Shown here piece by piece: positions 8,879-40,527 of a DNA stretch of 64,000 nucleotides. Source of the DNA: Deltaproteobacteria bacterium (GTDB lineage: Bacteria > Myxococcota > JACPTQ01); NCBI GenBank assembly GCA_016192705.1, contig JACPTQ010000017.1:62001-126000 (forward strand), written 5' to 3'. Each line of letters starts with the position of its first letter. The first letter of the stretch is position 1. The notes under the pieces were generated by a model, which was given only the letters and a program-made list of their open reading frames with translations, was not told the DNA's origin and did no database searches. The position numbers and the translations under genes were made by a program.

Positions 8879-8888
8879 CGCTGGCCTC

Positions 8889-11593: not shown

Positions 11594-11706
11594 AGGCGCG
11601 GAGGCGCCAAGAGAAGAGGTCTCATTCCTTACGTCTTTGCTCCTTTGCGCCTTGGCGTTGAAATCTTCTGCGGTGGCGGGTGCGGGAGCGGGTGCGGGTG
11701 CGGATG
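11583..11706 (+). repeat. Family-A repeat copy A2 plus adjoining hexamer tract
   Basis: A2 (11583-11665) has arms gttaaacgcaaaggcgcgg and ctttgcgccttggcgttgaaatc. It continues into a degenerate GCGGGW hexamer tract (11666-11706). Half of a family-B motif (accacaagagaaa) adjoins it on the other side. Read on the minus strand it encodes the same peptide frame as copies A3, A7 and A8 ([12 protein letters not shown]). Confidence 0.75.
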
Positions 11707-21353: not shown

Positions 21354-22733
21354 TTACGCCGACTCGTCGTTTGTTTCCGCCTCGTCCTTCGTGGATTTGA
21401 GGCCGAGTTTCTCGATGCGGCGATAGAGTGTCGCGAGCGAGAGCCCGAGGGCCCGTGCGGCTTCGCGGCGGTCGCCATCCACGCGCTCCAGCGTTGCGGC
21501 GATGAGGGCGCGCTCGAAGCTCGCCATCGTTTGCTCGTAGCCGCCGTCATCGGGGTGCGCGGCGCGGCCGGCGACGTCGGGCGGCAAGTCGGCGACGCTA
21601 ATGACGCGGCCCGTGCAGACGACGGTCGCGCGCTCGACGACGTTCGAGAGTTCGCGGATGTTGCCGGGCCACGCATACGAGACGAGGCGTTGGAGCGCGG
21701 CGTTGTCGAAACCGACGACGGGGCGGCGGTGCTCCTTTGCGTGCTTGTCGAGGAAATGCTGCGCGAGCACGGGGATGTCGTCGAGGCGTTGGCGAAGCGG
21801 CGGGACCTTCACGTGGAGCGCGGAGAGTCGGTAGTAAAGGTCGCTGCGGAACTTGCCCTCTTTGACGAGAGCCGCGAGATCGCGGTTTGTTGCGGTCACG
21901 ATCCGCGCATCGGTTCGCACAGGGCGCTCGCTGCCGACCGGGAAAACTTCCTTCGTTTCGATCGCGCGAAGCAGCTTGACCTGATGCGCTTGCGGGAGGT
22001 CGCCGATCTCGTCGAGGAAGAGCGTGCCTTTCGACGCCGCGCGAAAGAGCCCTTCGCGTGACGAGTCGGCACCGGAAAAGGCGCCGCGCTCGTGACCGAA
22101 AAGGTGGCTTTCGATCAGCGACTCGGGGATCGCGTTGATGTTGACCGCGAGGAACGGTCCGCTGCGGCGCGCCGATGCCTCGTGCAGCGTGCGCGCGACG
22201 ACTTCCTTGCCGCTGCCGCTTTCACCTTCGATGAGGACGGTGCTTTGCGAGAGCGCAATCTGGCGAACGAAGTCCATGAGGTCGAGCATCGTGCGGCTTC
22301 GAAGCACGGCGAGTGGAAGCTCGCGTCGCTCGGCGAGCTTCATTCGGAGAAGGGCGTTTTCTTTGATGAGGCGGCGGTGTTCGCAAAGTGCGTCGATCTT
22401 GCGCGCGACCTCTTCGAGCATGACGGGCTTCACGAAATAGTCCTGCACGCCGAGTCGCAGCGCGTCGACGACCGATTCAACGCTGCTGTAGGCCGTCATG
22501 ATGAGGATGATCGTGTCGGGCGACGTGAGGCGTAGGTCTGCCGCGAGCGTGAGCCCGTCTTTTCCGGGCAAGTTCACGTCTATGAGCGCGACGTCGAACT
22601 CTTGCTTCGCGGCCGCCGCGAACTCCTCCGCCGACTCGTGCGCCGCGACCTCATGCCCCTGCTCGACCAGATACCGCGCGAGATTGCCGCGCAGCGTCTT
22701 CTCGTCCTCGACGACCAGCACGCGTTCAGCCAT
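21354..22733 (-). CDS. Sigma-54-dependent response regulator (NtrC/AtoC type)
   Basis: A 459-residue protein with three domains. The receiver (1-120) has the acidic pocket (VVEDE), the phospho-acceptor Asp in ALIDVNLPG, and the Lys in YFVKP. The AAA+ domain (about 140-380) has Walker A GESGSGKE, Walker B LFLDEIGD, and an arginine-finger region. The sigma-54 contact loop reads GAFSGA rather than the usual GAFTGA. A Fis-type HTH ends the protein (REAARALGLSLATLYRRIEKL). The partner kinase is immediately upstream on the same strand (62-bp gap). The pair is divergent to the nar-act operon, with candidate binding sites between them. Confidence 0.93.
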   Translation of the reverse strand: MAERVLVVEDEKTLRGNLARYLVEQGHEVAAHESAEEFAAAAKQEFDVALIDVNLPGKDGLTLAADLRLTSPDTIILIMTAYSSVESVVDALRLGVQDYFVKPVMLEEVARKIDALCEHRRLIKENALLRMKLAERRELPLAVLRSRTMLDLMDFVRQIALSQSTVLIEGESGSGKEVVARTLHEASARRSGPFLAVNINAIPESLIESHLFGHERGAFSGADSSREGLFRAASKGTLFLDEIGDLPQAHQVKLLRAIETKEVFPVGSERPVRTDARIVTATNRDLAALVKEGKFRSDLYYRLSALHVKVPPLRQRLDDIPVLAQHFLDKHAKEHRRPVVGFDNAALQRLVSYAWPGNIRELSNVVERATVVCTGRVISVADLPPDVAGRAAHPDDGGYEQTMASFERALIAATLERVDGDRREAARALGLSLATLYRRIEKLGLKSTKDEAETNDESA

Positions 22734-22795: not shown

Positions 22796-24277
22796 CTACC
22801 CCCATTTCTCTTCTCCTCCGATCCCTGTGTTCTCGGTGTCTCTGTGGTTTCTCTTCTCCGGCTCTTGTTTTTCTTCCACCGCCCCGAACTCCAGCGTCAC
22901 CGCGGTTCCCACGCCGGGCGCAGATTCGATCGACAGCGTCCCGCCGACCGACCGCACGACATCGACGCTGACCGACAGTCCGAGGCCCGTTCCGCGCCCT
23001 TTCGTCGTAAAGAGCGGCTCGAGCGCGCGTCGCTTCACCTCGTCGTTCATTCCGACGCCGGTATCGATGACCCGCAAGCGCACGCCACCATTTGCGCAGT
23101 CGCCCCTGATTGTCAGCGTTCCGCCCTCGGGCATCGCGTCGAACGCGTTGATGAAAAGATTCACGAGCACCATGACGAGGTGGTCCTCAACCATTCGCAG
23201 CGTTGGCATGTCGCGATCGAACTCCGATGCAATACGAATCTTTCGCGCGCGCGGATCGTGGCGCACCATGCGGAGAGCGTCCTTGACTGCGTTCTCGACC
23301 ACAACGGCCGTCACTTCGTCGCCGCGCCGCCGCGCGAAATCGCTCATTTCGCGGAGCGTCCGCGTGATTCGCGCGATGTGTTCGCGCAGCACGGCCGCCG
23401 CGTTTCGCACGCGTTCCGGGTCTCGTTCGCGCTCGAGCATCTCAAGCTCGCTCGACATCGACGCGAGTGGGTTCCCGATGTCGTGCGCGATCCCCGCGGC
23501 GAGCATCCCGAGCGCCGACAACTTTTCCTGGTAACGCAACTCCGCTTCAAGCCGCTTCTCTTCGGTGATGTCGCGCGCCGTTTCAATAACGAGCGCCTGC
23601 TTGCCATCGGCGTCGGGCACGGGAAACGCGTCGACCGCATAGATTCGTCCCGTGCGCGGGTCGGTGCGAACGAACTCTCCCGTCGCGGGTGCTCCCGTCG
23701 CCAGTGCCTTTCGTGCAACGCAAGCGGGGTTCGTCGGTTCGCAACTCGCCCCAAAAAAATCGGTACAGGGTGCGTTCGAAACAGTTGTGCACCCAGCTGC
23801 ATCGAGCGCCACGCGGTTCGCCTTGACGATTCGGCCATCGCGGTCGAGCACGACAATTTGATCGCGCAAGCTGTCAAAGAGCCGATCCGTAAACGATTTG
23901 GCCTCGGCGAGCGCGCGCGTGCGTTCTTCCATCGCGAGGCGCAAGTCGCGGTACGCCGCCTGAAAGATGTCGTCGTAACGGCGTCGCGTTCGCCAGATGT
24001 TGTAAAACGCCCAGCTCGCGAGAAGGAGGGAGCATCCGATCCCGCGATACATATGGAAGAGAAAGAGTTCGTCGACGGAGTAGTGTTTCACGAGGTAGAT
24101 GCGCTCAACGATTTCGTAGGTGGCGAAAATGACGACGAGACCAATGGCGCCAACCGCGGCCGTCTTCGCCCACATGCGAATCCACCATCGCCCGGCAAAC
24201 GGATTCTGCGCCGGCTGAAGCCGATCGGACGGCGGAGACTCCTGATTCGCAACCACTCTAATAGATACGACCAGCAA
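22796..24277 (-). CDS. PAS-domain membrane histidine kinase, partner of the NtrC-type regulator
   Basis: The longest frame gives 493 residues; the best start may be the ATG at 24175 (ribosome-like GGTGGA) rather than the TTG at 24277 or the GTG at 24256. Two membrane segments lie near the N-terminus (TAAVGAIGLVVIFATYEIV and GIGCSLLLASWAFYNIW). A PAS domain (about 135-245) has an unusual group of cysteines (CTTVSNAPC, CEPTNPAC) that could bind a metal or sense redox. The HisKA motif is AAGIAHDIGNPLASM. The ATPase has NLFINAFDAM, DTGVGM and GRGTGLGLS. The last about 20 residues come from a family-B repeat. Confidence 0.9.
   Translation of the reverse strand: MLVVSIRVVANQESPPSDRLQPAQNPFAGRWWIRMWAKTAAVGAIGLVVIFATYEIVERIYLVKHYSVDELFLFHMYRGIGCSLLLASWAFYNIWRTRRRYDDIFQAAYRDLRLAMEERTRALAEAKSFTDRLFDSLRDQIVVLDRDGRIVKANRVALDAAGCTTVSNAPCTDFFGASCEPTNPACVARKALATGAPATGEFVRTDPRTGRIYAVDAFPVPDADGKQALVIETARDITEEKRLEAELRYQEKLSALGMLAAGIAHDIGNPLASMSSELEMLERERDPERVRNAAAVLREHIARITRTLREMSDFARRRGDEVTAVVVENAVKDALRMVRHDPRARKIRIASEFDRDMPTLRMVEDHLVMVLVNLFINAFDAMPEGGTLTIRGDCANGGVRLRVIDTGVGMNDEVKRRALEPLFTTKGRGTGLGLSVSVDVVRSVGGTLSIESAPGVGTAVTLEFGAVEEKQEPEKRNHRDTENTGIGGEEKWG
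22803..22859 (-). repeat. Family-B repeat copy B2 at the 3' end of the histidine kinase gene
   Basis: Reads ctctgtggtttctcttct on the plus strand. On the minus strand it is in frame and codes the last residues of the kinase (KRNHRDTENTGIGGEEKWG). A hexamer-like stretch (22760-22793) follows. Confidence 0.7.
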
Positions 24278-24343
24278 GCGATGTGCCCGTCGCTTCGAGA
24301 CTGTTCAATCGAGTAGACACCCGTAGATTCGCCACGAGTCGAT

Positions 24344-24389
24344 TCTCAATTTCGAGAGCGAACGAGAGTTTCCCGTCTCAGATTTGAGA
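24344..24389. promoter_or_regulatory. Paired dyads, candidate enhancer sites for the sigma-54 regulator
   Basis: Two similar 14-bp dyads, tctcaatttcgaga (24344-24357) and tctcagatttgaga (24376-24389), have centres 32 bp apart, which is three helical turns. They lie between the histidine kinase and the nar operon, about 120-165 bp upstream of a -24/-12-like sequence. That is a usual place for an NtrC-type activator. Binding by this regulator is an inference. Confidence 0.5.
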
Positions 24390-24508
24390 TGGGGTGTCGC
24401 GCAAATGACGACGTGTCCCACATGTGCGCCGCGCACGCTTTGCCGTCGGGCTGATCCGAGGCTCGCGTATTCGCGCCTTTTCCAATCGACAGGGGCCGTC
24501 CAATTTGC

Positions 24509-24524
24509 TGGCCCTTTCATTGCT
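24509..24524 (+). promoter_or_regulatory. Candidate sigma-54 (-24/-12) promoter
   Basis: Reads tggccctttcattgct, which matches tggcac-N5-ttgcw with one mismatch and correct GG-to-GC spacing. Transcription would start near 24535, after the first ATG (24527) and just before the second (24539). That would make the message almost leaderless, which lowers confidence. Confidence 0.4.
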
Positions 24525-24526
24525 TT

Positions 24527-25510
24527 ATGGCAGTTGCGATGACAACTGCAACCCTATTCAGCCTCTTGGTTTTCAGTTCGGCACCGGAATCTCCAGCGGC
24601 ACCCGCATCCGCGCCCGCTCCCGCGGAAGATTTCAACGCCAAGGCGCAAAGGAGCAAGGACGCAAGGAATGAGACCACTTCCCTTGGCGCTTCCGCGCCT
24701 TTGCGTCAAGTTCCCGCACCCGCTTCCGCTCCGGACGGCGGTGAGCCCGAGGCGTCGCCGGCCGCACTCATGTTCGGCAAAAAATGTTCGAGCTGCCACT
24801 CGCTTGGCGAAGGCGATCGCACCGGCCCTGACCTCGTCGGCGTCACGAAGCGTCGCGACACCGCATGGATTAAAAAGTTCGTTCGCACGCCAGGCGCCGT
24901 CATCGACTCGGGCGATGCCGCCGCGAAAGAGATGCTCGACAAGTTCAAGGGCGTTCGAATGCCCGACCAAGACTTAAAGGACGACGAACTCGACGCGATT
25001 CTCGCCTACCTCGCCGACTGCACCGCAAAAGGCATGTGCAAGATTGCGACGGGGAAGGCTAAACACGCGAACGAGGCGACGCCGGCTGAGGTTGCGTTCG
25101 GGCGCGCGCTCTTCGAAGGGTCGAAGCGCCTCACGAATGGCGGCCCCGCGTGCATCTCGTGTCACAACGTGCGCGGCGCGGGGATTCTCGGCGGCGGCAC
25201 GCTCAGCAAGGATTTGACGCACGCTTACCCGCGGATCGGTGACCCCGGGCTCTCGTCGGCGCTCGAATCGACGCCGTATCCTGTGATGAACCAGGTTTTC
25301 GCGAAGCGCGCGCTCACGAGCGCTGAGGCGTTCGCGCTTAAAGCGTATCTCGCCGACGTCTCGAAGGACGGCACCTCGCCGACCGCCGACCACAACTTCC
25401 TCTACCTCGGCATCATCGGCCTCTTCGTTGCGCTCGGCGCCATCGGCGTTGGCGCGGCGGGCCGCCTCCGAGGCGTTCGCCAAAGCATCGTGAAACGAGG
25501 TGCGCCGTGA
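24527..25510 (+). CDS. narC: Diheme c-type cytochrome with C-terminal anchor, NarC-like
   Basis: A 327-residue protein; the ATG at 24539 would remove four residues. A signal-like start ([10 protein letters not shown]) leads into an Ala/Pro linker that contains a family-A repeat. Two cytochrome c domains follow, with CSSCH and CISCH heme sites and candidate distal methionines (for example VRMPDQD and YPVMNQV). The C-terminus has one membrane helix ([20 protein letters not shown]) and a basic tail. In Thermus thermophilus nar operons a diheme cytochrome, NarC, precedes narGHJI and takes part in nitrate reduction, and this gene has the same place. Its stop overlaps the GTG start of narG. Confidence 0.75.
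24629..24710 (-). repeat. Family-A palindromic repeat, copy A3, inside narC
   Basis: The inverted arms are tttcaacgccaaggcgcaaa and gcgcctttgcgtcaa. It is in frame and codes [20 protein letters not shown] in the linker between the signal peptide and the first heme domain. A degenerate hexamer stretch (24591-24626) precedes it. Confidence 0.8.
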
Positions 25511-28500
25511 GCTGGATCAAAGACATCGTCGACCCCGAAACCCGCGCCTGGGAACAGTTTTATCGAAACCGATGGCAGCACGACAAAGTCGTTCGGTCGA
25601 CGCACGGCGTGAACTGCACGGGCGGCTGCTCGTGGAACATCTACGTCAAGGAAGGCGTCGTGACGTGGGAGATGCAGGCGCTCGACTATCCGCTGCTCGA
25701 TCGGTCGCTACCGCCGTACGAACCGCGCGGGTGTCAGCGCGGGATTTCGTACAGCTGGTACATCTACAGCCCGATTCGCGTGAAGTACCCGTACGTGCGG
25801 GGCGCGCTCCTCGACTTGTGGCGCGATGCACGCAAACAGTACGACGATCCGGTTGAAGCGTGGGCGTCAATCCAAGCCAACGAAAAGGGGCGCGCGCTTT
25901 ATCAGCGGGCGCGCGGGAAGGGCGGCTTTCGGCGCGCGGCGTGGAGCGATGTGCTCGAAATCGTCGCGGCGGCGAACATCCACACGGCGAAAAAATATGG
26001 GCCCGATCGCGTCATCGGTTTTGCGCCGATCCCCGCGATGTCGATGCTGTCGTATGCGGCCGGCGCGCGGTTTCTACAACTTTTTGGCGGCGTCTGTTTA
26101 AGCTTCTACGACTGGTACTGCGACTTGCCGCCCGCATCGCCCGAAATCTGGGGCGAGCAGACCGACGTCGGCGAGAGCGCCGATTGGTACAACTCAAAAT
26201 TCACGGCGGTCATGGGATCGAACCCGAACATGACGCGCACGCCCGACTGCCATTTTGCCGCGGAGATGCGGCACAACGGCACGAAGCTCGTCGTCTTCTC
26301 GCCCGATTTCAGCCAGGTCGCAAAGTATGCGGACCAGTGGGTGCCGCTCCACGCGGGGTCGGACGGCGCGTTTTGGATGGCGGTCAATCACGTCATCCTG
26401 AAGGAGCGTCACCACGAGGAGCCGTCGAAATTATTTTTGGAGTACGTGCGGCGATACACCGATTCGCCGATGCTTATCAAACTTGAGAAGGATGGCGACG
26501 CGTACAAGCCGGGGCGGTTGCTGCGCGCGAACACGCTCGAGAAATACAAAGACGTCGAGAACGGCGAATGGAAATTCCTCGTCATCGATGAGGCGACCGG
26601 CGAAGCGAAGATGCCGGGCGGAACGATGGGGCATCGCTGGCAAAAGAACGGTGGCCAGTGGAACCTCGAATACAAAGACACCGCCGACGGGAGCGAATAT
26701 TCGCCGGCGCTTTCGTTCCTAACGAAAAACGACGAAGTCGCGCAGGTGCGATTCAACGATTTTGGGAGCGACAGCGTCGTCACGCGCGGCATTCCGATTC
26801 GGTTCGTTGAGACGCGCGAAGGACGCGTGGCGGTCGCGACGATTTACGATCTGCTGTTCGGCGAATTCGGTGTGGGGCGCGGACTTCCGGGCGAATACGC
26901 GAAAAGTTTCGACGACGAAAACGCGACGTACACGCCGGCGTGGCAAGAAAAGTTTACGGGCGTTTCACGAAACACGGTTTTGCAGTTTGCGCGCGAATGG
27001 GCGCGGACCGCGGAGCTCACGGGCGGCAAGTGTATGATCATCATCGGCGCGGGGATCAACCACTGGTACCACAACAATTTGATGTACCGGTCGGGAATCG
27101 TTGCGCTGATGCTGACGGGGTGCGTCGGCAAAAACGGCGGCGGGCTCAACCATTACGTCGGCCAAGAAAAACTCGCGACGGTCGCGCCGTGGGCAGCGAT
27201 GGCGTTCGCGCGCGATTGGAGCGGGCCGCCGCGGCTGCAGAATGCGCCGTCGTGGCACTACATGCAGACCGACCAGTGGCGCTACGACGCTGGGCACTCG
27301 CATTACGGCGTCGTGCCGAAGGACAGCCCGGAACGTGGCGTCCACACGGCCGACATGCAGGCGCGCGCCGTGCGGCTCGGGTGGCTGCCTTGGTATCCGC
27401 AGTTCCCCGAGAATCCGCTCGAGGCCGTAAAAGCCGCTGAAGCCGCGGGCGCGAAGACAAACGAGGAGATCCTCGCGCACATCGCGAAGCGAATCGAAAA
27501 AGGCGACCTCAAATATTCGGTCGACGACGTCGATGCGGCGGCCGCGTGGCCGCGCGTTTGGTACATCTGGCGCGGGAATGCGCTCATGTCGTCCGCGAAG
27601 GGGCATGAGTTCTTTTTGAAGCACTACCTCGGAACGCACCACAACGACATCTGCGATGAGCACGCGGCCGGCAAGGTGAAAGACGTCGCGTGGCACGACA
27701 AGGCGCCGGAAGGGAAAATGGATCTCGTCGTCGACATCAATTTCCGCATGGACACGTCGGCGCTTTACAGCGACATCGTTTTGCCGACAGCGACGTTTTA
27801 CGAAAAGGCCGACCTCAACTCGACCGACTTGCACTCGTTCATTCACCCGCTCGGAGAGGCGGTTCCGCCGTCGTGGGAGTCAAAACCCGATTGGGACATC
27901 TTCAAGGAGATTGCGAAGAAGACGTCGGAAGTCGCCAGGCGGCATTTCCCGACGCCGGTCAAAGACGTTGTCATGACGCCGCTCGCGCACGACACCGTCG
28001 ACGAGCTTGCGCAGCCGTCGATCAAAGACTGGCGAAAGGGCGAGTGCGCGTTCGTGCCTGGGAAAACGACGCAACGTTTTACGATCGTCGAGCGCGATTA
28101 CACGAAGCTGTGGGAGAAATACACGTCGCTCGGACCGAACATCAAAAAGGACGGCCTCGGTGCGCACGGCGTCAAATACGACTGCGCCGATTTTTACGAT
28201 GAGCTCGCGGCCGAGAATCCGACGATCAAATTCGATGGGCAGGTTTACCCGTCGATCGAATTCGCGCCCGATGCGGCGAACGTGATCTTAAAGCTCGCGC
28301 CCGAAACGAACGGCGAACTCGCGTATCGCGCGTACAAGTTGATGGAAAAAAAGACGGGGCTCGTGCTCGCGGATTTAGCGGAGGGCGCGCGAAAGTCGCG
28401 TGCGACATACAAGGACTTGCTCGCGCAGCCGCGGAGATTGCTAAACAGCCCGGCCTGGTCGGGGCTCGTGACCGACGGGCGCGCGTATTCGGCGTTTACG

Positions 28501-29130
28501 TACAACATCGAAAAGCGCGTGCCGTTTCGAACGCTCACGGGGCGGCAACAGTTTTATCTCGACCACGAGGGGTACCTCGCGTTCGGCGAGCATTTGCCGA
28601 CGTTCAAGCCGTCGCCGCTGCCGGCGGTTTACCAAGACCTCGATAAGACGGAGTCGCGAGGAAACACCGGGCCGACGAAAATCTTGAACCTGCTCACGCC
28701 GCATGGGAAGTGGCACATCCACTCCACGTATGGCGACACGCTCCGCATGATGACGCTCTCGCGTGGGTGCGAGCCGTTCTGGATGAACGACAAAGACGCG
28801 GACGAGATCGGCATCGTCGACAACGACTGGGTCGAGGTGCACAACGACAACGGCGTCTACTGCACGCGCGCGGTCGTGAGTGCGCGAATTCCGCGTGGCG
28901 TCTCGATTGTTTACCACTCGCCCGAGCGGACGCTGAACATCCCGAAGTCGGAGACGCGAAAAGGGCGCCGCGCCGGTGGCCACAACTCGCTGACGCGCAC
29001 GCGATTGAAACCGGTGCTGATGTACGGGGGGTACGGACAGTTCACGTTCCACTTCAACTACTGGGGGCCGACGGGCGTTAACCGCGACACGCACGTGATG
29101 GTTCGCAAGATGGAAAAGGTGGTGTTTTGA
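25507..29130 (+). CDS. narG: Respiratory nitrate reductase, catalytic alpha subunit
   Basis: A 1207-residue protein, close to the usual 1200-1250, starting at a GTG that overlaps the previous stop. It reduces nitrate to nitrite at a molybdenum bis-MGD site. The N-terminal Fe-S site has the His/Cys pattern [19 protein letters not shown] with a later CQRG. The molybdenum-ligand region is [11 protein letters not shown]. Other conserved stretches are [10 protein letters not shown] and [19 protein letters not shown]. There is no Tat signal, so the active site should face the cytoplasm as in NarG. This argues against the exported nitrite oxidoreductase type. Confidence 0.96.
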
Positions 29131-30617
29131 TGGACATACGCGCGCAAGTCTCGATGGTCTTTCATCTCGACAAGTGCATCGGGTGCCACACGTGCAGCAT
29201 TGCGTGCAAGAACGTTTGGACCGATCGCAAAGGCGCCGAATACATGTGGTGGAACAACGTCGAGACGAAGCCGGGGACCGGCTACCCGACGGCGTGGGAA
29301 GATCAGGAACGGTACGGCGGCGGGTGGACGCAAAACGGCGATGTGGTGCAGCTCCGAGTGAATGGGCGGTTTCGCGGACTCGCGAATATTTTTCACAATC
29401 CGAAGCTGCCGGTCATCGACGACTACTACGAGCCGTGGACGTATCGCTATCAGGACTTGTTCGACGCACCAGCGTCGGACGACCAACCGACGGCGCGCGC
29501 GGTGTCGCTGATTACGGGCGAGCCGATGAACATCGAAGCGGGGCCGAACTGGGACGACGACCTCGGTGGGTCGCCGGTATACGCGGCGAACGACCCGAAC
29601 CGCGCGGCCATGACACCACAAGAGCGCGAGATGATGTTCGAGGTCGAGCGGCTCACGTTTTTTTATCTGCCGCGCATTTGCAATCACTGCCTGAATCCGG
29701 CGTGCGTGGCGGCGTGTCCGTCGTCGGCGCTTTACAAGCGGGGCGAGGACGGCATCGTCGTCCTGAACCAGGAGCGGTGCCGCGGGTGGCGGCTTTGCGT
29801 GTCGGCGTGCCCGTACAAAAAAACGTATTTCAATTGGGCGACGGGGAAGAGCGAGAAGTGCATATTGTGTTACCCGCGCGTTGAGACAGGGCAGGCGCCG
29901 GCGTGCTTTCACTCTTGCGTCGGGCGGATTCGCTACCTCGGGATTCTGCTTTACGACGCCGACAAGATCTTACCGACGGCGACGATGCCCGATGCGGAGT
30001 TGGTCGAGGCACAGCGCGCGATGATCCTCGACCCGCACGACCCCGAGGTGATTCGCGAGGCCGAGAAAAACGGGATTCACCCGTCGGTCATCGAGTCGGC
30101 TCAGAAGTCGCCTGTTTACAAGTTCGTCAAGGAGTGGAAGCTCGCGCTGCCGCTCCACATCGAATACCGGACGCTCCCGATGCTGTTTTATGTGCCGCCG
30201 CTCTTGCCGGTCTTGGCGAAGAAGGCCGACACGTACGACACGGCGACCGAAGACCTGTGGGCGCCGATCGAAGAGGCGCGCTTGCCGATTGAATATATGG
30301 CGAGCCTGTTTGCGGCGGGGAACGTCGGGAAGGTGCGGCATGCGATGAAGAAGGAGCTTGCGGTGCGGTACTTCCGGCGGCACGTGACGGTCGGCGATGT
30401 TCCGGCGGCGCGGGTCGACGCGATGCTTGCGGAGGTGGGGTCGTCGCGTGAGGAGGCGGAGGCGATCTATCGGCTCACGTCGCTGCCGCTCTTTGACGAA
30501 CGGTTCGTGATTCCGCCGTCGCATCGAGAGGAAGCGGTCGAGGCGCTCGAGTCGCCGTTCGAATTTCGCGGGGCGACTGGGTTTGGGTTTCGCGAGAAGC
30601 CGACGCGGGGGCTGTGA
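29130..30617 (+). CDS. narH: Respiratory nitrate reductase, iron-sulfur beta subunit
   Basis: A 495-residue protein whose ATG overlaps the narG stop (TGATG). It carries the electron wire between NarI heme and NarG. Four cysteine groups are visible: CIGCHTCSIACKNVW, CNHCLNPACVAACP, CRGWRLCVSACPYKK (the Trp-containing site that usually carries a 3Fe-4S cluster), and CILCYPRVETGQAPACFHSC. It lacks a signal peptide, as expected for a cytoplasmic subunit. The stop overlaps the narJ start (TGATG). Confidence 0.96.
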   Translation: MDIRAQVSMVFHLDKCIGCHTCSIACKNVWTDRKGAEYMWWNNVETKPGTGYPTAWEDQERYGGGWTQNGDVVQLRVNGRFRGLANIFHNPKLPVIDDYYEPWTYRYQDLFDAPASDDQPTARAVSLITGEPMNIEAGPNWDDDLGGSPVYAANDPNRAAMTPQEREMMFEVERLTFFYLPRICNHCLNPACVAACPSSALYKRGEDGIVVLNQERCRGWRLCVSACPYKKTYFNWATGKSEKCILCYPRVETGQAPACFHSCVGRIRYLGILLYDADKILPTATMPDAELVEAQRAMILDPHDPEVIREAEKNGIHPSVIESAQKSPVYKFVKEWKLALPLHIEYRTLPMLFYVPPLLPVLAKKADTYDTATEDLWAPIEEARLPIEYMASLFAAGNVGKVRHAMKKELAVRYFRRHVTVGDVPAARVDAMLAEVGSSREEAEAIYRLTSLPLFDERFVIPPSHREEAVEALESPFEFRGATGFGFREKPTRGL

Positions 30618-31480
30618 TGGCGCACCGGTACGAGGAGATCGCGGAGCTGCTCGGATATCCGACGGAGAAGATGAAGAGAACATGCACCACAGAGACGCAG
30701 AGGGCTGGGAGATCTGAGGGAGAAGGAGTTAAACGCAAAGGCGCAGAGACCCAAAGCAAGGAGGACTCTTTCTTGGCGCCTTCGCGCCTTGGCGTCTTGG
30801 CGTTGAATCCGGATGCGGAGTGCGGGTTTCCTGAGTTCGCGGAGTTCGTAGCGGGGCGCGATCTGCGCGAGCTCGAGGAGCTGTACACGTCGACGTTCGA
30901 CATTCAGGGGAACGTTTGCCTCGACGTCGGGTATCAGTTGTTCGGCGAGACGTACAAGCGCGGGCAGTTCATCGTGAAGTTGCGCGTGGCGCTTCGCGAG
31001 GCGGGCGTGAGTGAGGCGGGGGAGCTGCCGGATCATCTGCCGAGTGTGCTGCGGTTTCTGGCAAGGCGGGACGAGGAGGAAGAGAAGACGCAACGCAAAG
31101 ACGCAGAGGCGCAAAGCGAGAATGTTTGTGCTGCGGCGCCTTCGCGCCTTGGCGACTTGGCGTTGAATCCGGATTCGAGGTCACAGAGGTATCCCGGTGA
31201 CGCGGAGGAGCTCGTGCGCGAAGCGGTGCTGCCGGCGATCGTGAAGATGATCGATGCGTTTGGGGTGGCGTCGAATCCGTATCGCGCGCTGCTTGAAGCG
31301 ACGAAGGCGGTGTTGCAGGCGGACTACGGGGTTGCGGAAATCCCCGCGGCGCCCGATGCCGACCGCGGTGGCTCAAAGTCCTTTCTACCTCCAGGTGCAA
31401 GTGGGCGATTCACGCTTCCGATCGCGCAAGACTACGACGTCGATGAAGAGGGATCTGAGCAGCGAGGGTTTCGGCCATGA
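30617..31480 (+). CDS. narJ: Nitrate reductase assembly chaperone NarJ with two repeat-encoded insertions
   Basis: A 287-residue protein, larger than typical NarJ. The core pattern is present: YEEIAELLGYP at the start, LEELYTSTFDIQ, GQFIVKLR, and the conserved ELPDHLPSVLRFLARRD. Two blocks interrupt it. Residues about 21-66 are coded by a family-B arm plus a family-A repeat. Residues about 156-190 are coded by a second family-A repeat. Removing both leaves about 200 residues, near the normal size. NarJ binds apo-NarG and supports cofactor insertion; the insertions fall in likely loops. Whether it is functional is uncertain. The stop overlaps the narI ATG. Confidence 0.9.
   Translation: MAHRYEEIAELLGYPTEKMKRTCTTETQRAGRSEGEGVKRKGAETQSKEDSFLAPSRLGVLALNPDAECGFPEFAEFVAGRDLRELEELYTSTFDIQGNVCLDVGYQLFGETYKRGQFIVKLRVALREAGVSEAGELPDHLPSVLRFLARRDEEEEKTQRKDAEAQSENVCAAAPSRLGDLALNPDSRSQRYPGDAEELVREAVLPAIVKMIDAFGVASNPYRALLEATKAVLQADYGVAEIPAAPDADRGGSKSFLPPGASGRFTLPIAQDYDVDEEGSEQRGFRP
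30685..30810 (+). repeat. Compound insertion: family-B arm (B3) plus family-A repeat (A4) inside narJ
   Basis: B3 (30685-30727) reads ccacagagacgcagag. A4 (30728-30810) has arms gttaaacgcaaaggcgcaga and cgccttggcgtcttggcgtt. Both are in frame, so NarJ stays open through 126 inserted bases. Confidence 0.8.
31088..31170 (+). repeat. Family-A repeat, copy A5, second insertion in narJ
   Basis: Arms are acgcaacgcaaagacgcaga and cgccttggcgacttggcgtt. It reads in the same frame as copies A1 and A4 and is most similar to A4 (both contain gcgccttcgcgccttggcg). Confidence 0.8.
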
Positions 31481-32181
31481 TTGAGAACATTGTTTTCGGC
31501 GCATTCCCGTACGTCGTCGTGGTGCTGTTTCTGTTTGTCACGATTCAGCGCTATCGCGCACGCGGGTTCACCGTCACGTCACTCTCGTCGCAGTTCCTCG
31601 AATCGCGCGCCCTTTACTGGGGCTCGCTCCCATTTCACATTGGCATCATCCTACTCTTTTTCGGCCACTTCATCGGCTTCCTCATCCCGCGCGAAGTCAT
31701 GGCGTGGAACGCCTCGCCGCTTCGCCTCGTCGTCCTTGAAGTGACGGCCCTCGCCGCCGGCCTGCTCGCGCTCGTCGGCCTCGTTCTCCTCATCTTGCGG
31801 CGATTAACCCACGCGCGGCTTCGCGCGGTCACATCGAACGCCGACACGCTCCTCTACGCTGTTTTGCTGGCTCAGATTGCGACGGGGCTCTACGTTGCGC
31901 TCGTCCATCGCTGGGGATCTTCGTGGTACACGGCGGTCGCGGTGCCTTACCTGAAGTCGCTATTTGTGCTCGAGCCCAATGTAAAGCTGCTCGCCGATTT
32001 GCCGCTCATGGTGAAAGTGCACATCGCGGGCGCTTGGGTGCTATTCGCGATCTTCCCGTTCACGCGGCTCATGCACATCCTCGTTGCACCGGTTCCGTAC
32101 CTTTGGCGGCAAACGCAGGTGGTCATTTGGAACCGCGATCGGCGGAAGCTTCGTCGTGTCGCGGCGAACGAAAAGACTTGA
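31477..32181 (+). CDS. narI: Respiratory nitrate reductase, cytochrome b gamma subunit
   Basis: A 234-residue membrane protein with about five hydrophobic helices. NarI takes electrons from quinol and passes them through two b hemes to NarH. The likely heme ligands are histidines in LPFHIGIILLFFGHFIGF (two) and MVKVHIAGAW plus FTRLMHILVAP (two), a spacing that matches the family. The start overlaps narJ (ATGA) and the stop overlaps the next gene (TGATG). Confidence 0.94.
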   Translation: MIENIVFGAFPYVVVVLFLFVTIQRYRARGFTVTSLSSQFLESRALYWGSLPFHIGIILLFFGHFIGFLIPREVMAWNASPLRLVVLEVTALAAGLLALVGLVLLILRRLTHARLRAVTSNADTLLYAVLLAQIATGLYVALVHRWGSSWYTAVAVPYLKSLFVLEPNVKLLADLPLMVKVHIAGAWVLFAIFPFTRLMHILVAPVPYLWRQTQVVIWNRDRRKLRRVAANEKT

Positions 32182-33764
32182 TGACGGAGCGACGCAAAGC
32201 GCTATCGGCACTCACGATGAACACGCTCGCGTTCACCGTTTGCTTCGCCGTGTGGATGATGAACGGCGTCCTCGTGACGTTCCTCGTCGAGAACCGCATC
32301 CTCGCGTTCGATAAGTCGCAGATCGGCTGGCTGATGGGTATTCCGGTACTCACGGGCTCGCTCGTACGACTTCCGGTCGGAATGCTGACCGACAAATACG
32401 GCGGGCGCGTCGTGTTTCCGGCCGTCATGTTTGTCGCGGCGCTGTCGTGCGTTGGGCTTAGCTTCGCGACGACGTTTGGTGAATTCGTTGTCGGGAGCCT
32501 CGGCTTCGGCCTCGCGGGGACCGGGTTCGCCGTCGGCATCGCGTATACGTCGGTTTGGTTTAAGCGCGAACACCAGGGAACAGCGCTCGGCGTCTTCGGC
32601 GTCGGCAACGCGGGCGCGGCGCTCACGAGTCTCGGCGCACCCACGATTCTCATGGCGCTCACCGACAATCTCGCGAATCCCGAAGGCTGGCGAAACCTGC
32701 CGCGCATTTACGCGGCGGCGCTCGTCGTCATGACGATCGTCTTTTCTCTCGCGACCGAAAACCGAACGCCGGCGCACGGCCGCGATCGCACATGGCGCGA
32801 ACACTTGGCGCCGCTCAAGGTGATGCGCGTCTGGCGATTTGGGCTTTATTACTTTTTCGTCTTCGGCGGTTTCGTCGCCCTCGCGCAGTGGCTTATCCCG
32901 TATTACGTCGCCGCTTACGAAACATCGGTCGCGCTTGCCGGCGTTCTCGCCGCGATCTTCAGCCTGCCGTCGGGCGTCATTCGCGCGCTCGGCGGCTGGA
33001 TGTCGGACAAGTTTGGCGCGCGCACCGTGATGTACTGGGTTCTCGGCGCGAGCGTGGTCTGCTGCGCGCTCCTCGTCGTGCCACGCATGGACATCACGTC
33101 GCCGAGCGAAGGCGTCATCTCAACGGTGGGCGGAACGGTCACGGCCGTGAGCGCAAAAGAAATCCGCGTCGGCGACCGCGCGTTCGCCGTACGCCCGAAG
33201 GATGGCAATGCGGCGCCCGCCGACGGCCGTGTTCTCGTTTGGCCGACGTCCGAGTTTTGGCAGGAGCCGATCGTCAAAGTGGGCGACGCGGTGTCGAAGC
33301 GGCAGCTGCTCGCGCGTGGCACGACGCACATTTTTTTCCAGGCGAATATCTGGATCTTTACGTTTCTTGTTTTCGTTGTCGGCATCATGATGGGAATTGG
33401 CAAGGCCGCCGTCTACAAGTACATCCCCGAATATTTTCCAGACAACGTCGGCTCGGTCGGCGGGCTCGTCGGCGTCATCGGCGGGCTCGGCGGCTTCGTT
33501 TGTCCAATCATCTTTGGCTATCTCCTCAAGTGGACCGGCCTCTGGACGACGTGCTGGATGCTCTTCTTCGCGCTCGCGTTCGTCTGCCTCATTTGGATGC
33601 ACATCGTTGTGCGGCGAATGGAGAAGCGGCAAGCGCCTGAGATGTCGCAACAGATCGACGAAAAGTCCGTCAGGCCATCCCGCGCGGACGGTACCGAGGC
33701 GAGCGTATCCATATCGGGTACGCCGCCCACCTCGACGCGGATGGCAGCGATGAGAAACAGCTGA
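32181..33764 (+). CDS. narK1: Nitrate/nitrite transporter, MFS family, with a soluble insertion (NarK1)
   Basis: A 527-residue major-facilitator protein with 12 predicted helices. NarK-type features include RLPVGMLTDKYGGR and the glycine-rich nitrate signature GVFGVGNAGAALTSLGAP, with the second at IGKAAVYKYIPEYFP to GLVGVIGGLGG. Between helices 9 and 10 an insertion of about 90 residues (about 290-385) contains a short beta-rich stretch (ITSPSEGVISTVGG, IVKVGDAVSKRQLLARG) that looks like a lipoyl/barrel-sandwich fold without an obvious attachment lysine. The last 35 residues are polar. Probable nitrate uptake; direction cannot be told from sequence. Confidence 0.88.
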   Translation: MTERRKALSALTMNTLAFTVCFAVWMMNGVLVTFLVENRILAFDKSQIGWLMGIPVLTGSLVRLPVGMLTDKYGGRVVFPAVMFVAALSCVGLSFATTFGEFVVGSLGFGLAGTGFAVGIAYTSVWFKREHQGTALGVFGVGNAGAALTSLGAPTILMALTDNLANPEGWRNLPRIYAAALVVMTIVFSLATENRTPAHGRDRTWREHLAPLKVMRVWRFGLYYFFVFGGFVALAQWLIPYYVAAYETSVALAGVLAAIFSLPSGVIRALGGWMSDKFGARTVMYWVLGASVVCCALLVVPRMDITSPSEGVISTVGGTVTAVSAKEIRVGDRAFAVRPKDGNAAPADGRVLVWPTSEFWQEPIVKVGDAVSKRQLLARGTTHIFFQANIWIFTFLVFVVGIMMGIGKAAVYKYIPEYFPDNVGSVGGLVGVIGGLGGFVCPIIFGYLLKWTGLWTTCWMLFFALAFVCLIWMHIVVRRMEKRQAPEMSQQIDEKSVRPSRADGTEASVSISGTPPTSTRMAAMRNS

Positions 33765-35086
33765 TGGCCACGTGGCTGGAAAAATGGGAGCCGGAGAATC
33801 CGGAATTTTGGGCGAAGACCGGCTCGAAGATTGCGTGGCGGACTCTCATCATCACGACCGCGACGCTCGTTTTGTCGTTTGCGACGTGGTTCATGATGAG
33901 CGCGATCGTCGTGCGGTTGCCGAACATCGGGTTCAAGTTTAGCCCCATGGATCTCTTTTGGCTCGCGGCAATGCCGGGGCTTGCGGGCGGAACGTTGCGC
34001 CTCATTCACACTTTCATCATCCCGATTTTTGGGACGCGGCACGTTGTCACCGTTGCGACGTTTTTGAAGCTCATCCCATGCATCGGGATCGGGCTCGCGA
34101 TCAACAACCCGTCGACGCCGTTTTGGGTCTTCATGTTGCTCGCGCTCGCGGCCGGTTTTGGCGGCGGCGATTTCTCGTCGTACATGCCGTCGACGAGTCT
34201 CTTCTTTCCGAAGCGACTCCAGGGCACGGCACTTGGAATCCAGGCGGGCATTGGGAATTTTGGCGTGAGCCTCGCGCAGTTTGTGACGCCGTGGATCGTG
34301 AGCTTCGCGGCGCTTGGCGCTGTCGTTGGGCCATCGCAGACGTTCGTGAAGGGTGAAGTCTCGAAGCCGATCTGGCTCCAGAACGCGGCCTATTGGTATG
34401 TCCCGCTTCTCGTCGTGTTCGGCGTGCTCGCGTGGATTTACTTGCGGAGCGTGCCGATCCGTGCGTCGGTGCGGCAGCAGTTCGACATTTTTGGCAACAA
34501 GCACACGTGGATCATGACGTCGCTCTACGTCATGACGTTCGGATCGTTTTCGGGTTTCTCGGCGGCCTTCCCGCTGATGATCAAGTCGGTCTACGGACAT
34601 TTTCCGAACGCGCCGGACCCGCTCACTTACGCTTTCATAGGGCCGCTCGTTGGCTCAGTGATTCGCGTCGTCATGGGACCGCCATCGGACAAGTGGGGCG
34701 GTGCGATCTGGACGCTGCTCTCGGGATTCGGGCTTCTCGCATGTTCCATCGGCGTCACGTTCTTTACGACGCCGACTTCGCTCGATTCGTTCCCGATGTT
34801 CGTCACGCTGATGATTGGGCTGTTCCTTTTTGCCGGCATCGGGAACGCGTCGACGTTTCGACAGATCCCGATCATCTTCGAGCCGCGGCAAGCGGGCGGG
34901 GTTCTCGGCTTTACCGGCGCGATCGCGGCGTACGGGCCGTTCCTTTTTTCGGTGGCGATCGGCGCGGTCATCGGCTCGACGGGAAACCCGAACCTCTTCT
35001 TTTATATCGCCGCGGTTTTCTACGCGGCCAACATCGCACTCAATTGGTGGTTCTACACGCGGAAGGGATGCGAGAAACCGTGTTAG
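33764..35086 (+). CDS. narK2: Nitrate/nitrite transporter, MFS family (NarK2/NarT type)
   Basis: A 440-residue protein with about 12 membrane helices. It has the first nitrate signature GFGGGDFSSYMPSTSLFFP and QGTALGIQAGIGNFGVSLAQ, and the second at GIGNASTFRQIPIIFEP with GGVLGFTGAIAAYGP. It is the second transporter in the operon, as in Thermus and Pseudomonas clusters, where one often imports nitrate and the other exchanges nitrite for nitrate. The ATG overlaps the stop of the previous gene, and the stop overlaps the GTG of actA by 7 bp. Confidence 0.92.
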   Translation: MATWLEKWEPENPEFWAKTGSKIAWRTLIITTATLVLSFATWFMMSAIVVRLPNIGFKFSPMDLFWLAAMPGLAGGTLRLIHTFIIPIFGTRHVVTVATFLKLIPCIGIGLAINNPSTPFWVFMLLALAAGFGGGDFSSYMPSTSLFFPKRLQGTALGIQAGIGNFGVSLAQFVTPWIVSFAALGAVVGPSQTFVKGEVSKPIWLQNAAYWYVPLLVVFGVLAWIYLRSVPIRASVRQQFDIFGNKHTWIMTSLYVMTFGSFSGFSAAFPLMIKSVYGHFPNAPDPLTYAFIGPLVGSVIRVVMGPPSDKWGGAIWTLLSGFGLLACSIGVTFFTTPTSLDSFPMFVTLMIGLFLFAGIGNASTFRQIPIIFEPRQAGGVLGFTGAIAAYGPFLFSVAIGAVIGSTGNPNLFFYIAAVFYAANIALNWWFYTRKGCEKPC

Positions 35087-35625
35087 GTCGCAAGAACTCT
35101 GTGCTGGCCTCGCTCTGTGTCTCTGTTTCTCTGTGGTTGCATTTGATTTCGTGCACCATGGGTTCGCAGCAGGGGTACGAGCCGGCGCAACCGATCGCTT
35201 ATTCGCACGCGCTGCACGCGGGCGAGCTCCAGATCAATTGTCTCTATTGTCACTCGGGCGCTGAAAAGAGTCGGCATGCGGGCGTTCCATCGGCGAGCAT
35301 TTGCATGAACTGTCCCGCGCAGGTGAAAAAGGACGCACCAGAAATCAAGAAGCTCTCGGCGGCGATCGAGAGCGGAACGCCGATTGAATGGACGCGCGTC
35401 CATCGGTTACCGGACTTCGCGTACTTCAATCACAGTCGGCACGTCGCGGCAAACGTCGCGTGTCAAACGTGCCACGGCGCGGTTGAGACGATGGTGCGTG
35501 TGAAACAGGTCGAGACGATGACGATGGGGTGGTGTCTCGATTGTCATCGAAATACCGAAAAGGAGACTCGGTCAGCGGCGAAGCGGATTGCGCCAACGAC
35601 CGATTGTTCAGCATGTCACTACTAG
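35080..35625 (+). CDS. actA: Alternative complex III subunit A, multiheme cytochrome c lipoprotein
   Basis: A 181-residue protein from a GTG that overlaps the narK2 stop. It begins with a signal peptide ending in LHLISC, a usable lipobox; that signal is encoded by a family-B repeat. The mature part has five CxxC motifs: CLYCH, CMNCP, CQTCH, CLDCH and CSACH. ActA normally carries five or six c-type hemes. The second motif has Pro in place of the heme-ligand His (codon ccc, one base from cac). ActA passes electrons from the ActB iron-sulfur chain to cytochrome c. Its end overlaps the actB start. Confidence 0.82.
   Translation: MLGRKNSVLASLCVSVSLWLHLISCTMGSQQGYEPAQPIAYSHALHAGELQINCLYCHSGAEKSRHAGVPSASICMNCPAQVKKDAPEIKKLSAAIESGTPIEWTRVHRLPDFAYFNHSRHVAANVACQTCHGAVETMVRVKQVETMTMGWCLDCHRNTEKETRSAAKRIAPTTDCSACHY
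35096..35145 (+). repeat. Family-B repeat copy B4, coding the ActA signal peptide
   Basis: Reads ctctgtgtctctgtttctct followed by gtggttg. It codes SVLASLCVSVSLWLHLI, the hydrophobic core of the signal, which is followed directly by the lipobox cysteine. Confidence 0.75.
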
Positions 35626-38446
35626 ATAAAGACAAATACTGGCAATGCGCCGACGAGCACGTAAACGAGGACGAGCACGACCACGTCCACGGTTACGATC
35701 ACGAGAGAGACAATCCACCACCGGCGTCGGTTAACCGGAGATCGTTTTTCAAAATAATGGGACTCTCGACGGCGGCGGTGGCGGCGGCGGGCTGCAAGCG
35801 CGCGCCGGTCGCGAAGATCGTGCCGTACCTGACGAAACCAGAGGAGGTCACGCCGGGCGAAGCGCTCTGGTATGCGTCGACATGCGGGGCGTGCAGCGCG
35901 GCATGCGGGATTCTGCTCAAGACGCGCGACGGTCGGCCGATCAAGGTCGAAGGGAACGAGAAACATCCGGCATCGCGCGGTGGCGTGTGCGCGATGGGGC
36001 AGGCGTCGGTTTTGTCGCTCTACGATGCGGCGCGAGCGCGGGGGCCGCTTGCGGCCGGGAAAGCGACGACGTGGGCCGAACTCGATGCGGCGGTCAAGGC
36101 GGGGTTTGCGAGGGCGGCGGCGAGTGGAAAGTCAATTCGCGTCGTGACGCCACCGGTGGTCGGGCCGACCGCTGACGCGACGATCGCGGCTTTCCTCGCG
36201 GCATTTCCAACGGCAAAGCGCGTGACGTTCGACGCGCTGCCATACGAAGAGGCGATCGCCGATGCGCATGCGGCGACGCACGGCGCGCGCGTTGTGCCAG
36301 CGTACAACTTTGGGGGCGCAAAGGTCGTTGTGAGCGTGGGCGCCGACTTTCTCGGGACGTGGGTTTCACCCGTTGCGTTCACGCGCGATTACGCGAAGGC
36401 GCGCGACCCCGAAGGCGTGCGGCCAATGCTGCGCCACATCCAGATCGAATCGACGATGTCTCTTGCGGGCGCCAACGCGGACCGGCGTTATTCCGTCGCG
36501 CCTTCCGACGAGATTCCCGTTCTCGCGGCGCTCGCGCGGCGAGTCCTTGAGCGGTCGGACGTTGCCGGCAAAGACACGCTACTCGCGGCCGTCGCAAAAA
36601 TCGGCCCGGCGAAATTCGATGCGCGATCGCTCGATGCCGTCGCGAAGGAAATTCTTGCGCGGCGCACGGAGGCCTTGGTTGTAAGCGGGTCAACCGACGT
36701 TCGCGCGCAGACGCTCGTCAACATCATCAATTACGCGCTCGGAACGACGGTCGTCTCGTCTGCTCGGCCGCTGCATCGGCTTGCCGCCGCCCTTTCGTTC
36801 GCGGAGTTCCTCGCGGAGTTGAAGGCAGGCAGCGTCGGTGCGGTTTTGCTCTGCGGCGTAAACCCGGTGTACGCGCATCCCGATGGCGCTGAAATTGCGA
36901 AGGCGTTACGTGGTATTCCGCTCGTTGTGTCGACAAACGATCGCGTCGATGAAACGGCAAGTGCGGCGGCGTATCTCGCGCCGAGTCATCACTTCTTAGA
37001 GTCGTGGGGGGATGCGGCTACGGCGTTGACGGCACTCTCATTGTCGCAGCCAGCTGTCACGCCGCTTTTCGATACGCGCGGGACGTGGGAGTCGCTGCTC
37101 GCGTGGGCCGGAAGGAGCAGCGCCTATTACGACTTCATGCGTGCGCGTTGGGAGAAAGAGGTTTTTCCGGTTGCCGCAGATGCAGGCGCATCGTTTCAGG
37201 CGTTTTGGGATCGGTCGGTACACGACGGGGTCGCCGCCCTGAAGGAAGCGCCGGAAGCAGCGCTGCCGTTTCGTATTGACGAAACACAGAAAGCCCTCGA
37301 AGGGATTGGGGCATCGCCAGCTGTTGGTGGCGTCGAGGTCGCGCTCTACGCGAAAGTCGGAATGCGCGACGGCGCGCTCGCAAATAACGGCTGGCTCCAA
37401 GAGTTGCCCGATCCGATATCGAAGGCGACATGGGGGAACTACGCGGCGATGTCGCCCGCGCTCGCGAAGAAACAGGGACTCGCCGAGGGCGCGGGCGTCA
37501 CGGTGTCGTTCGGCGACCGCAAAGTGACGCTCCCCGTTCTCATCCAACAAGGAACTCACGAGAACGTTGTTGCGCTCGCACTTGGATACGGCCGCACGAG
37601 GGCGGGCAAGGTCGGAAACGGCGTCGGTGCGAATGCGTTTGCGCTTGCGCGCGTCGACGCTGGGCGCGTGCAACTTTGTCGGCCTGGTGCCGCGATTTCC
37701 GCGACCGGCGCGGTCGAGCCGCTCGCTCTTACGCAGACGCACCACTCGCAGGAAAAGCGCGCGCTCGTCCGCGAGGCGACGGCTCGGCCTGCGTCGTGTC
37801 GTGTAACGCCGAGAACAACATCACGACCGTCGGCAAGGACGAGGTCTGGCGCCGCCGCGAGATGCACTGGCTTCGCGTCGACCGTTATTTTGAAGGACCG
37901 CCCGAAAACCCGGGCGTCGTTTTCCAACCGATGACGTGCCTGCACTGCGAAAACGCGCCGTGCGAAACCGTCTGCCCGGTGCTCGCAACCGTTCATTCAA
38001 GCGATGGCCTCAACCAGCAGGTCTACAACCGCTGCGTCGGAACGCGCTACTGCGCGAACAACTGCCCGCCGAAGGTGCGCCGCTTCAACTGGTTTGAATA
38101 CGACCATGGCGAGCCGATCGAGCGCATGGTCCTAAACCCCGACGTCGTCGTGCGTTCGCGCGGAGTCATGGAGAAGTGCTCGCTCTGCGTGCAGCGCATC
38201 CAGGCCGGCAAAGCGGACGCGAAGCGCGCGGGACGCCCGGTCGCCGATGGTGACATCCGAACGGCGTGTCAGCAGAGTTGCCCCGCGGGCGCCATCGTCT
38301 TTGGCGACTTGAACGATCCGAAAAGCCGCGTCGCCGCGCTCGTCAAGAGCGGACGCAACTACCGCCTCTTCGAGGATCTCAACATCGGCCCCGTCGTGAG
38401 CTATCTCACGAAACTGCGCAACCCAGGCTCAAAGGAAGGGGTCTAA
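35613..38446 (+). pseudogene. actB: Alternative complex III iron-sulfur subunit ActB, frameshifted with probable internal deletion
   Basis: The first part runs in one frame from the ATG at 35613 to about 37781, and the C-terminal part continues in another frame to 38446. The N-terminus has a His/Asp-rich stretch, then a Tat-like motif (NRRSFFKIMGLSTAAVAAAGC). The molybdopterin-oxidoreductase-like domain follows (CGACSAACGILLKTRDGRPI). The C-terminal ferredoxin-like domain has CLHCENAPCETVCP, CVGTRYCANNCP and CSLCVQRI. At the junction, LVREAT meets GSACVVSC, so the start of the first Fe-S site (expected C-x-G-C) and a linker are missing. Either a real mutation or an assembly error would explain this. 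In intact complexes ActB takes electrons from quinol. Confidence 0.8.
35647..35712 (+). repeat. gacgag/cacgac hexamer-like tract coding a His/Asp-rich stretch of ActB
   Basis: Degenerate repeats such as gacgagcacgaccacgtcca code DEHVNEDEHDHVHGYDHERD before the Tat motif. Related tracts are at 12583-12634 and 41208-41262. Confidence 0.55.
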
Positions 38447-38449
38447 CTC

Positions 38450-40006
38450 ATGAGTCACGCCGTCTCACCCCTCCGCGAGCCGCTCGTCAGCGAAGCGCGA
38501 ACGCTTCATCAGCTCACCGACGAAATCGCGCGCCCCATGGAGCGCCGTCCGACGAAGGCGTGGTGGTGCGCGTTCCTCGCGTCGTTCAGCGCGCTCGTGC
38601 TCGGCGTTTACTGTGTGTCGGTGCAGGTGATGACGGGCGTCGGAACGTGGGGCCTCAACAAGACTGTCGGCTGGGCGTTCGACATCACCAACTTCGTTTT
38701 CTGGATCGGCATCGGGCACGCGGGCACGCTCATCTCGGCGATCCTTTTCCTCTTCCGGCAGAAGTGGCGCACGTCGATCAATCGCTCCGCCGAGGCGATG
38801 ACGCTTTTCGCGGTCATGTGCGCCGGGCTCTTCCCCATCATCCACATGGGGCGCCCGTGGTTCGCGTATTTCGCGGCGCCGTACCCGAACGATCGGGGGC
38901 CGCTCTGGGTGAACTTCCGATCGCCGCTCGTCTGGGACATGTTCGCGATCTCGACGTACTTCATCATCTCCGCGGTGTTCTGGTACGTCGGACTCTTGCC
39001 CGACCTTGCAACGATGCGCGACCGCGCGAAGAGCGCCATCCGCAAGGCCATCTACGGCGCGCTGTCGCTCGGCTGGAACGGCTCGCAGCGCACATGGCTT
39101 CGCTACGAAACGGTCTACCTGCTTCTCGCGGGGCTCGCGACGCCGCTCGTGTTGTCGGTGCACAGTATCGTGTCGATGGATTTCGCGACCTCGATTCTGC
39201 CCGGCTGGCACACGACGATTTTTCCGCCGTACTTCGTTGCGGGCGCCGTCTTCTCCGGATTTGCGATGGTCCTCACGCTGATGATCATCGCGCGGCACGT
39301 GATGGGCTGGAAGCACCTCATCACGATTCGGCACGTCGAGAACATGACGAAGATCATGATTGCGACGGGCGGCATCGTCGGGTTTGCGTATGCGACCGAG
39401 TTTTTTACGGCGTGGTACTCGGGCAACGAGCTCGAGCGATTCGCATTCTCAAACCGCGCATTTGGGCCGTACGCGTGGGCGTACTGGATCATGGTGGGCT
39501 GCAATGTGCTCATCCCGCAGTTCTTTTGGTTCAAGAAGATTCGGACGAGCGTCGCGGCGGTTTTTGCGCTGTCGATTCTCGTCAACGTCGGGATGTGGTT
39601 CGAACGGTTTGTCATCATTGTGACGTCGCTCCACCGCGATTTCTTGCCGTCGTCGTGGGCGATGTACGCGCCGACATTCATTGAGGTGGGGACGCTCGTC
39701 GGGACGTTCGGACTCTTCTTCACGTGCTTCCTGCTCTTCATTCGCGTGTTGCCAGCGGTGTCGATCGCGGAAGTTAAGGCGGTGTCGGGCTATGCGCGGA
39801 AGATAGGAGTAACCACAGAATTTCGCGAGCAATCTGCCAAGAAGCCAGTGGATTCATGGCGCGAGCGAAATGGGGAGCCCAACGGACACGGAGGGCGAAC
39901 CCCACCGCAACCACAGAGTACACAGAGATCGGAGGAGAAGAAAAAGGGGGATAAGAAGGAGGATGCGGGTGCGGGAGCGGATTTGGTGACGGAGGCGGGG
40001 GAATGA
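38450..40006 (+). CDS. actC: Alternative complex III quinol-binding membrane subunit ActC
   Basis: A 518-residue NrfD-like membrane protein with ten predicted helices (for example [30 protein letters not shown]). ActC is thought to hold a quinol site and contribute to proton handling. Conserved polar residues lie in the helices ([13 protein letters not shown]). The last about 60 residues are not family-like: they are polar and largely coded by family-B and hexamer-type repeats (39811-40000). The stop overlaps actD (ATGA). It starts 3 bp after actB. Confidence 0.92.
39811..39950 (+). repeat. Family-B repeats (B5) coding the ActC C-terminal extension
   Basis: Copies of accacaga- and accacagagtacacagag at 39811-39820 and 39908-39930, with purine-rich ggaggagaagaaaaaggggg after them. 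They code [18 protein letters not shown] in frame. Confidence 0.65.
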
Positions 40007-40527
40007 GCGCGCGAATGTTTGTCGCGTATTTTGGAAGCGAGGACGGAATTCTTGGGGCTACGCGGGCGGTGCGCGAGGCGGGCTTTGAGATTCACGACGT
40101 TTACACGCCGTACGCGGTGCATGGGATGGACGAGGCGATGGGGCAGCGGCCGTCGCGCATCACGTGGGTCTGTTTTTTTGCGGGGGCGTTTGGGCTTGCG
40201 GTCGCGCTCGCGCTTCAGATTTGGACGTCAGCCGTCGACTGGCCGCTCAATGTTGGCGGGAAGCCGCACAACTCGTTTCCCGCGTTCATTCCGGTGGCGT
40301 TCGAGCTCACGGTTCTCTTCGGAGGGCTTACGACCGTCGCGGCTCTCTTCCTTCGGTCGCGACTAAAGCCGCGCATGAGCAACGCGCATGTGTTGCCGCG
40401 CGTCACCGACGATCGGTTCGCGCTCGCGCTGGTTGTTGAGGGTCACGCCTTTGACGCCGATCGCGCGGAAGCGATCTGCGCCGCGCATGGCGTGGTCGAA
40501 ACCGATTTCGTCGAGGTTTCAAAATGA
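40003..40527 (+). CDS. actD: Alternative complex III subunit ActD (DUF3341 family)
   Basis: A 174-residue protein with two central membrane helices ([19 protein letters not shown] and [19 protein letters not shown]). It has the family's N-terminal ferredoxin-like stretch, including [18 protein letters not shown]. ActD is a small membrane subunit of the complex without cofactors. It overlaps actC at the start and actE at the end (ATGA at both). Confidence 0.93.

Follow-up and report, generated by a model that had tools for sequence, protein, structure and literature searches.

We consider it likely that the intergenic region at 24278-24538 is a sigma-54 enhancer-promoter unit, i.e., a bEBP-UAS-sigma-54 switch dedicated to the nar-act operon that follows it. 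Positions refer to the window, the whole 64,000-nucleotide stretch of DNA analysed (G000:C10:62001-126000), which belongs to a 5.2 Mb Myxococcota genome in 88 contigs. The preliminary description had proposed that sigma-54 enhancer geometry links a divergently encoded regulator to the nar-act operon, and this link is supported most strongly by a syntenic locus in a second genome (G102), and also by the dyads, a promoter candidate with GG-N10-GC, the full set of activator domains in the regulator and the presence of rpoN (PF04552 at C43:48517-48993, E 6e-63; one found in the genome). Comparisons were made at the phylum level, with 195 Myxococcota genomes, because the analysed genome alone represents its family and class among the genomes compared.

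Regulator, kinase and nar-act operon

Gene positions and Pfam domains confirmed that an NtrC-type regulator and a kinase lie divergently beside the dyads, as described earlier. The regulator (21354-22733, - strand) is an NtrC-type response regulator (bEBP) with receiver (PF00072), AAA+ (PF00158), PF25601 and Fis-type HTH (PF02954) domains; the sigma-54 interaction AAA+ domain was matched by PF00158 with an E value of 2e-64, together with AAA_lid_14. Aligned with its G102 orthologue, which carries the loop GAFTGA, the regulator reads GAFSGA, and a survey in another bacterium places GAFSGA among the variants expected to keep activity (PMC4641369). The membrane histidine kinase (22796-24277, - strand; start uncertain, TTG 24277 or later) contains PAS, HisKA and HATPase_c domains according to Pfam. 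Its signal is probably redox, oxygen or nitrate, because inspection of the protein shows a PAS with cysteines and a short membrane module but no large periplasmic sensor. Three cysteines of the kinase PAS are common to the G102 orthologue, with redox or metal sensing as a possible function. A paralogous kinase-regulator pair (L091 4049-7605), 41-45% identical and with a different recognition helix, is located about 80 kb away on the same contig.

The operon begins with a narC-type membrane cytochrome c (PF00034; 24527-25510, ORF start ATG 24527) and continues on the same + strand with narG (25507-29130), narH (29127-30617) and narJ (30614-31480), all assigned by Pfam and by synteny with G102, and narI (31477-32181), assigned by synteny with G102. 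These are followed by two MFS nitrate/nitrite transporters, narK1 and narK2 (32181-35086), and by the co-oriented actA-actF genes for alternative complex III (35130-42454), which have the same order in G102. From narC to actF, gene ends mostly overlap or abut. We infer that the physiological role of the operon is nitrate respiration and not the reverse reaction; a NarC homologue is found in the nitrite oxidoreductase of Nitrobacter (PMC7694296).

Two peculiarities of the operon were observed on the side. The actB gene is split across two frames (ORFs 35529-37934 and 37430-38446, break at about 37.7 kb), either by an assembly error or by a real frameshift, and is a single open frame of 982 codons in G102. 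An interspersed repeat (24633-24710 and 11627-11653) reads in frame as a peptide inside narC and is absent from G102 narC, and a related repeat peptide was seen by inspection in narJ and in other ORFs, including 5252-5749 (- strand).

Twin dyads and promoter candidate

Two dyads, candidate UAS 1 and UAS 2, are found in the intergenic region on the + strand: a distal one, TCTCAATTTCGAGA (24344-24357), and a proximal one, TCTCAGATTTGAGA (24376-24389). Direct reading and a script both placed their centres at 24350.5 and 24382.5, which corresponds to a spacing of 32 bp and agrees with the earlier claim of two dyads 32 bp apart upstream of a promoter-like sequence. The twin character of the dyads held in part, as both are present but not equally perfect: the proximal dyad matches TCTCA-N4-TGAGA at 10/10 positions, while the distal dyad carries one mismatch (9/10). 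At least two TCTC-N6-GAGA dyads did not occur in any of 3000 shuffles of the intergenic stretch (249 bp) that preserved dinucleotides, and any repeated dyad with 4-bp arms within 60 bp was obtained in 6/3000. Across the 5.2 Mb genome, the exact TCTCA-N4-TGAGA occurs only three times, namely in the proximal dyad, at window positions 8887-8900 and at C42:35354; the site at 8887-8900, just beyond the end of a CorA-like gene, was taken as a chance match. As a pair, the twin-dyad pattern was found as an exact match only in this intergenic region and in that of G102 among the 195 Myxococcota genomes, the pattern having been built from both, and the lack of further exact sites points to a putative single, dedicated target. 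An off-register control pattern (one N off) had no match in either genome and 11 matches at two mismatches. The best match to an NtrC box in the intergenic DNA of the window has five mismatches.

Downstream of the dyads, the sequence expected to fit TGGCAC-N5-TTGCW with one mismatch was indeed located at 24509-24524 (+ strand): this -24/-12 (sigma-54 type) promoter candidate, TGGCCCTTTCATTGCT (TGGCCC-TTTCA-TTGCT), differs from the consensus by an A to C change and keeps GG-N10-GC intact. Promoter matches were scored by mismatch counts, and a match with zero or one mismatch arose in 11/5000 shuffles (0.2%). Genome-wide, TGGCNC-N5-TTGCW is not enriched (28 sites compared to 75 for a reversed-pattern control), and a pattern this common is informative only together with its surroundings. 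A scan of 24250-24560 revealed no sigma-70-like promoter. The best match to the FNR box TTGAT-N4-ATCAA has three mismatches in the window and four in G102, which does not fit an FNR-type nar promoter.

The promoter and the start site are the weakest link of the sigma-54 reading. The predicted -12 element lies 4 bp ahead of the annotated start codon of narC, and the predicted transcription start (~24535) falls 8 bp beyond this ATG (24527), so that a start at ~24535 requires the narC start codon to be revised to ATG 24539. Either translation of narC would begin at ATG 24539, leaving a leader of ~4 nt and thus an almost leaderless mRNA, or the start site would differ from the predicted one. No Shine-Dalgarno sequence was found ahead of ATG 24527 or ATG 24539.

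A second locus, other nar loci and alternative explanations

A search with the kinase identified one close relative among the 195 genomes of the phylum, in G102, where the whole locus is present in the same order, with the regulator and kinase genes divergent from narCGHJIK1K2-actA-F. The G102 regulator is 65% and the kinase 58% identical to those of the window, and the predicted recognition helix, GLSLATLYRRIEKLGLK, is identical in both regulators and differs in paralogues. The intergenic region of G102 (locus L090) contains a distal dyad, TCTCAGTCTCGCGA (6599-6612, 8/10), and a proximal dyad, TCTCAGGGCTGAGA (6631-6644, 10/10), exactly 32 bp apart, and 32 bp was the best-scoring spacing in both genomes when spacings of 14-79 bp were tried. 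Shuffles of the G102 region reproduced an exact dyad in 3/20000 cases and a pair of such quality at 32 bp in 0/20000. The promoter counterpart, CGGCCC-TCCCG-TTGCA (6739-6754), has two mismatches with GG/GC intact, a quality reached in ~5.6% of shuffles. The distance between proximal dyad and promoter differs by 25 bp between the two loci, and relative to the predicted starts the dyad centres lie at about -185/-153 in the window and -160/-128 in G102. In G102, the predicted narC leader is 37 nt long, with GUGAGG just before the ATG.

Outside of these elements, the intergenic regions of the two genomes align no better than shuffles, and general similarity of the whole regions was therefore discarded. 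Across the dyads, the best ungapped 46-bp match reached 26/46 identities, a value attained by 165/1000 shuffles. The dyads and their spacing thus look constrained, as they were kept while the DNA between them diverged. The sigma-54 reading is supported by two loci only, which also served to derive the twin-dyad pattern.

In most of the Myxococcota loci compared, the cytochrome c homologues had no adjacent nar genes and were dropped. Three other genomes (G017, G183 and G105) possess narCGHJIK1K2, and this kinase-regulator pair is not adjacent. No act homologues were found past narK2 within the ~9 kb read in G105 and G183 or the ~5.4 kb read in G017. The three loci share a direct repeat, TGTAAG-N5-TGTAAG, ~80-110 bp before narC (L069, L070 and L071; reverse complement 5797, 5812 and 5821), and its OmpR- or SARP-like spacing suggests that a different activator may control the same nar operon. 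A further genome, G107, has close nar genes (narG and narH 73-77% identical) on a contig that ends at narC. A one-mismatch twin-dyad match on its contig C326 was considered as the missing nar half and rejected, as the gene downstream of it encodes an unrelated ATPase. The twin TTCTC-type dyads ahead of this ATPase-like gene, ~32 bp apart (L165 5426-5471), are probably an unrelated operator.

An alternative explanation is that the dyads are sites of this regulator and mainly autoregulate the kinase-regulator operon, with nar transcribed from another promoter. The dyads are indeed nearer to the annotated kinase start (67-112 bp) than to narC, and the promoter candidate for narC runs into the annotated start codon of this gene. 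We nevertheless regard this explanation as unlikely, as there is no -24/-12 site toward the kinase with fewer than four mismatches in the window, whereas a GG-N10-GC site toward narC is present in both genomes and the regulator is found together with the nar-act operon.

It is quite improbable that the dyads bind another factor, such as a repressor encoded elsewhere, and that their pairing with the NtrC-type regulator is a coincidence. The dyads upstream of the ATPase gene in G107 indicate that the palindrome type is not nar-specific, but the identical recognition helices of both regulators parallel the common dyads, and tandem dyads on the same face 130-185 bp upstream fit bEBP enhancers and not a promoter-overlapping repressor. 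Finally, single promoter matches are common in the genome (28 sites), and the dyads and the promoter match could in principle be functionless products of chance; this we consider very improbable, given that the dyad pairs were reproduced in 0/3000 (window) and 0/20000 (G102) shuffles and that their spacing has been kept although the DNA between them has not.

Proposed switch and relation to known systems

In the sigma-54 reading that we favor, the divergently encoded kinase would phosphorylate its NtrC-type partner, whose dimers would bind both dyads, three helical turns apart on the same face, and then form the active AAA+ ring. DNA looping would carry the ring to sigma-54 polymerase on TGGCCC-N5-TTGCT, where ATP hydrolysis would open the promoter for transcription of narC-G-H-J-I-K1-K2, and, judging by co-orientation and tight gene packing, transcription may extend to actA-F. 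Phosphorylation, binding, looping, use of sigma-54, start site, length of the operon and signal are what we infer from the arrangement. A more far-reaching version, which we think doubtful, is that a dedicated sigma-54 redox switch acting via the PAS cysteines turns on a single operon in which a reversible Nar-type nitrate/nitrite enzyme is combined with alternative complex III, the narC message from its sigma-54 promoter being almost leaderless.

Control of the FNR/NarL type is the usual case for respiratory nitrate reductases. In enteric bacteria, narGHJI is controlled by NarXL/FNR, and NarL is a sigma-70 activator without an AAA+ domain. With the enteric system the proposed switch shares a two-component system acting on a membrane nitrate reductase; however, no FNR box with fewer than three mismatches is present here and the kinase has no large periplasmic domain. 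NtrYX, which contains an NtrC-family regulator linked to denitrification, is broad in its action and to our knowledge not encoded beside nar, whereas the pair described here is dedicated and divergent, with a local site. Similar to NtrC-type systems such as NtrBC at glnAp2, the locus combines a two-component partner, an activator with receiver, AAA+ and Fis HTH domains, paired palindromes 130-185 bp upstream and a GG-N10-GC promoter; the enhancer sites of glnA are also ~32 bp apart. It differs from them in the palindrome TCTCA-N4-TGAGA, the GAFSGA loop and the respiratory nitrate reductase as target. Minimal enhancers have been described (PMC4740811) as activator sites arranged in tandem that precede a sigma-54 promoter. 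The narCGHJIKT operon of Thermus thermophilus resembles the present one in its order of cytochrome c, G, H, J, I and two MFS transporters and in having regulators beside the operon, but these are the CRP-family DnrT with DnrS and DrpAB (PMC7694296), compared to an NtrC-type two-component system and appended act genes here.

A literature search of partial coverage, mostly of titles and abstracts, returned no description of narGHJI being controlled by a sigma-54 enhancer system of its own, although for some genes of the nitrate-reductase family a recent survey does predict sigma-54 sites (PMC12316311). What is new is the pairing of the switch with a nar operon and the motif, while the mechanism itself is known. 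If the proposed switch is true, it would provide a specific and directly testable UAS (TCTCA-N4-TGAGA in 32-bp pairs), and one narC-GHJI-K operon would have come under different switches in separate lineages.
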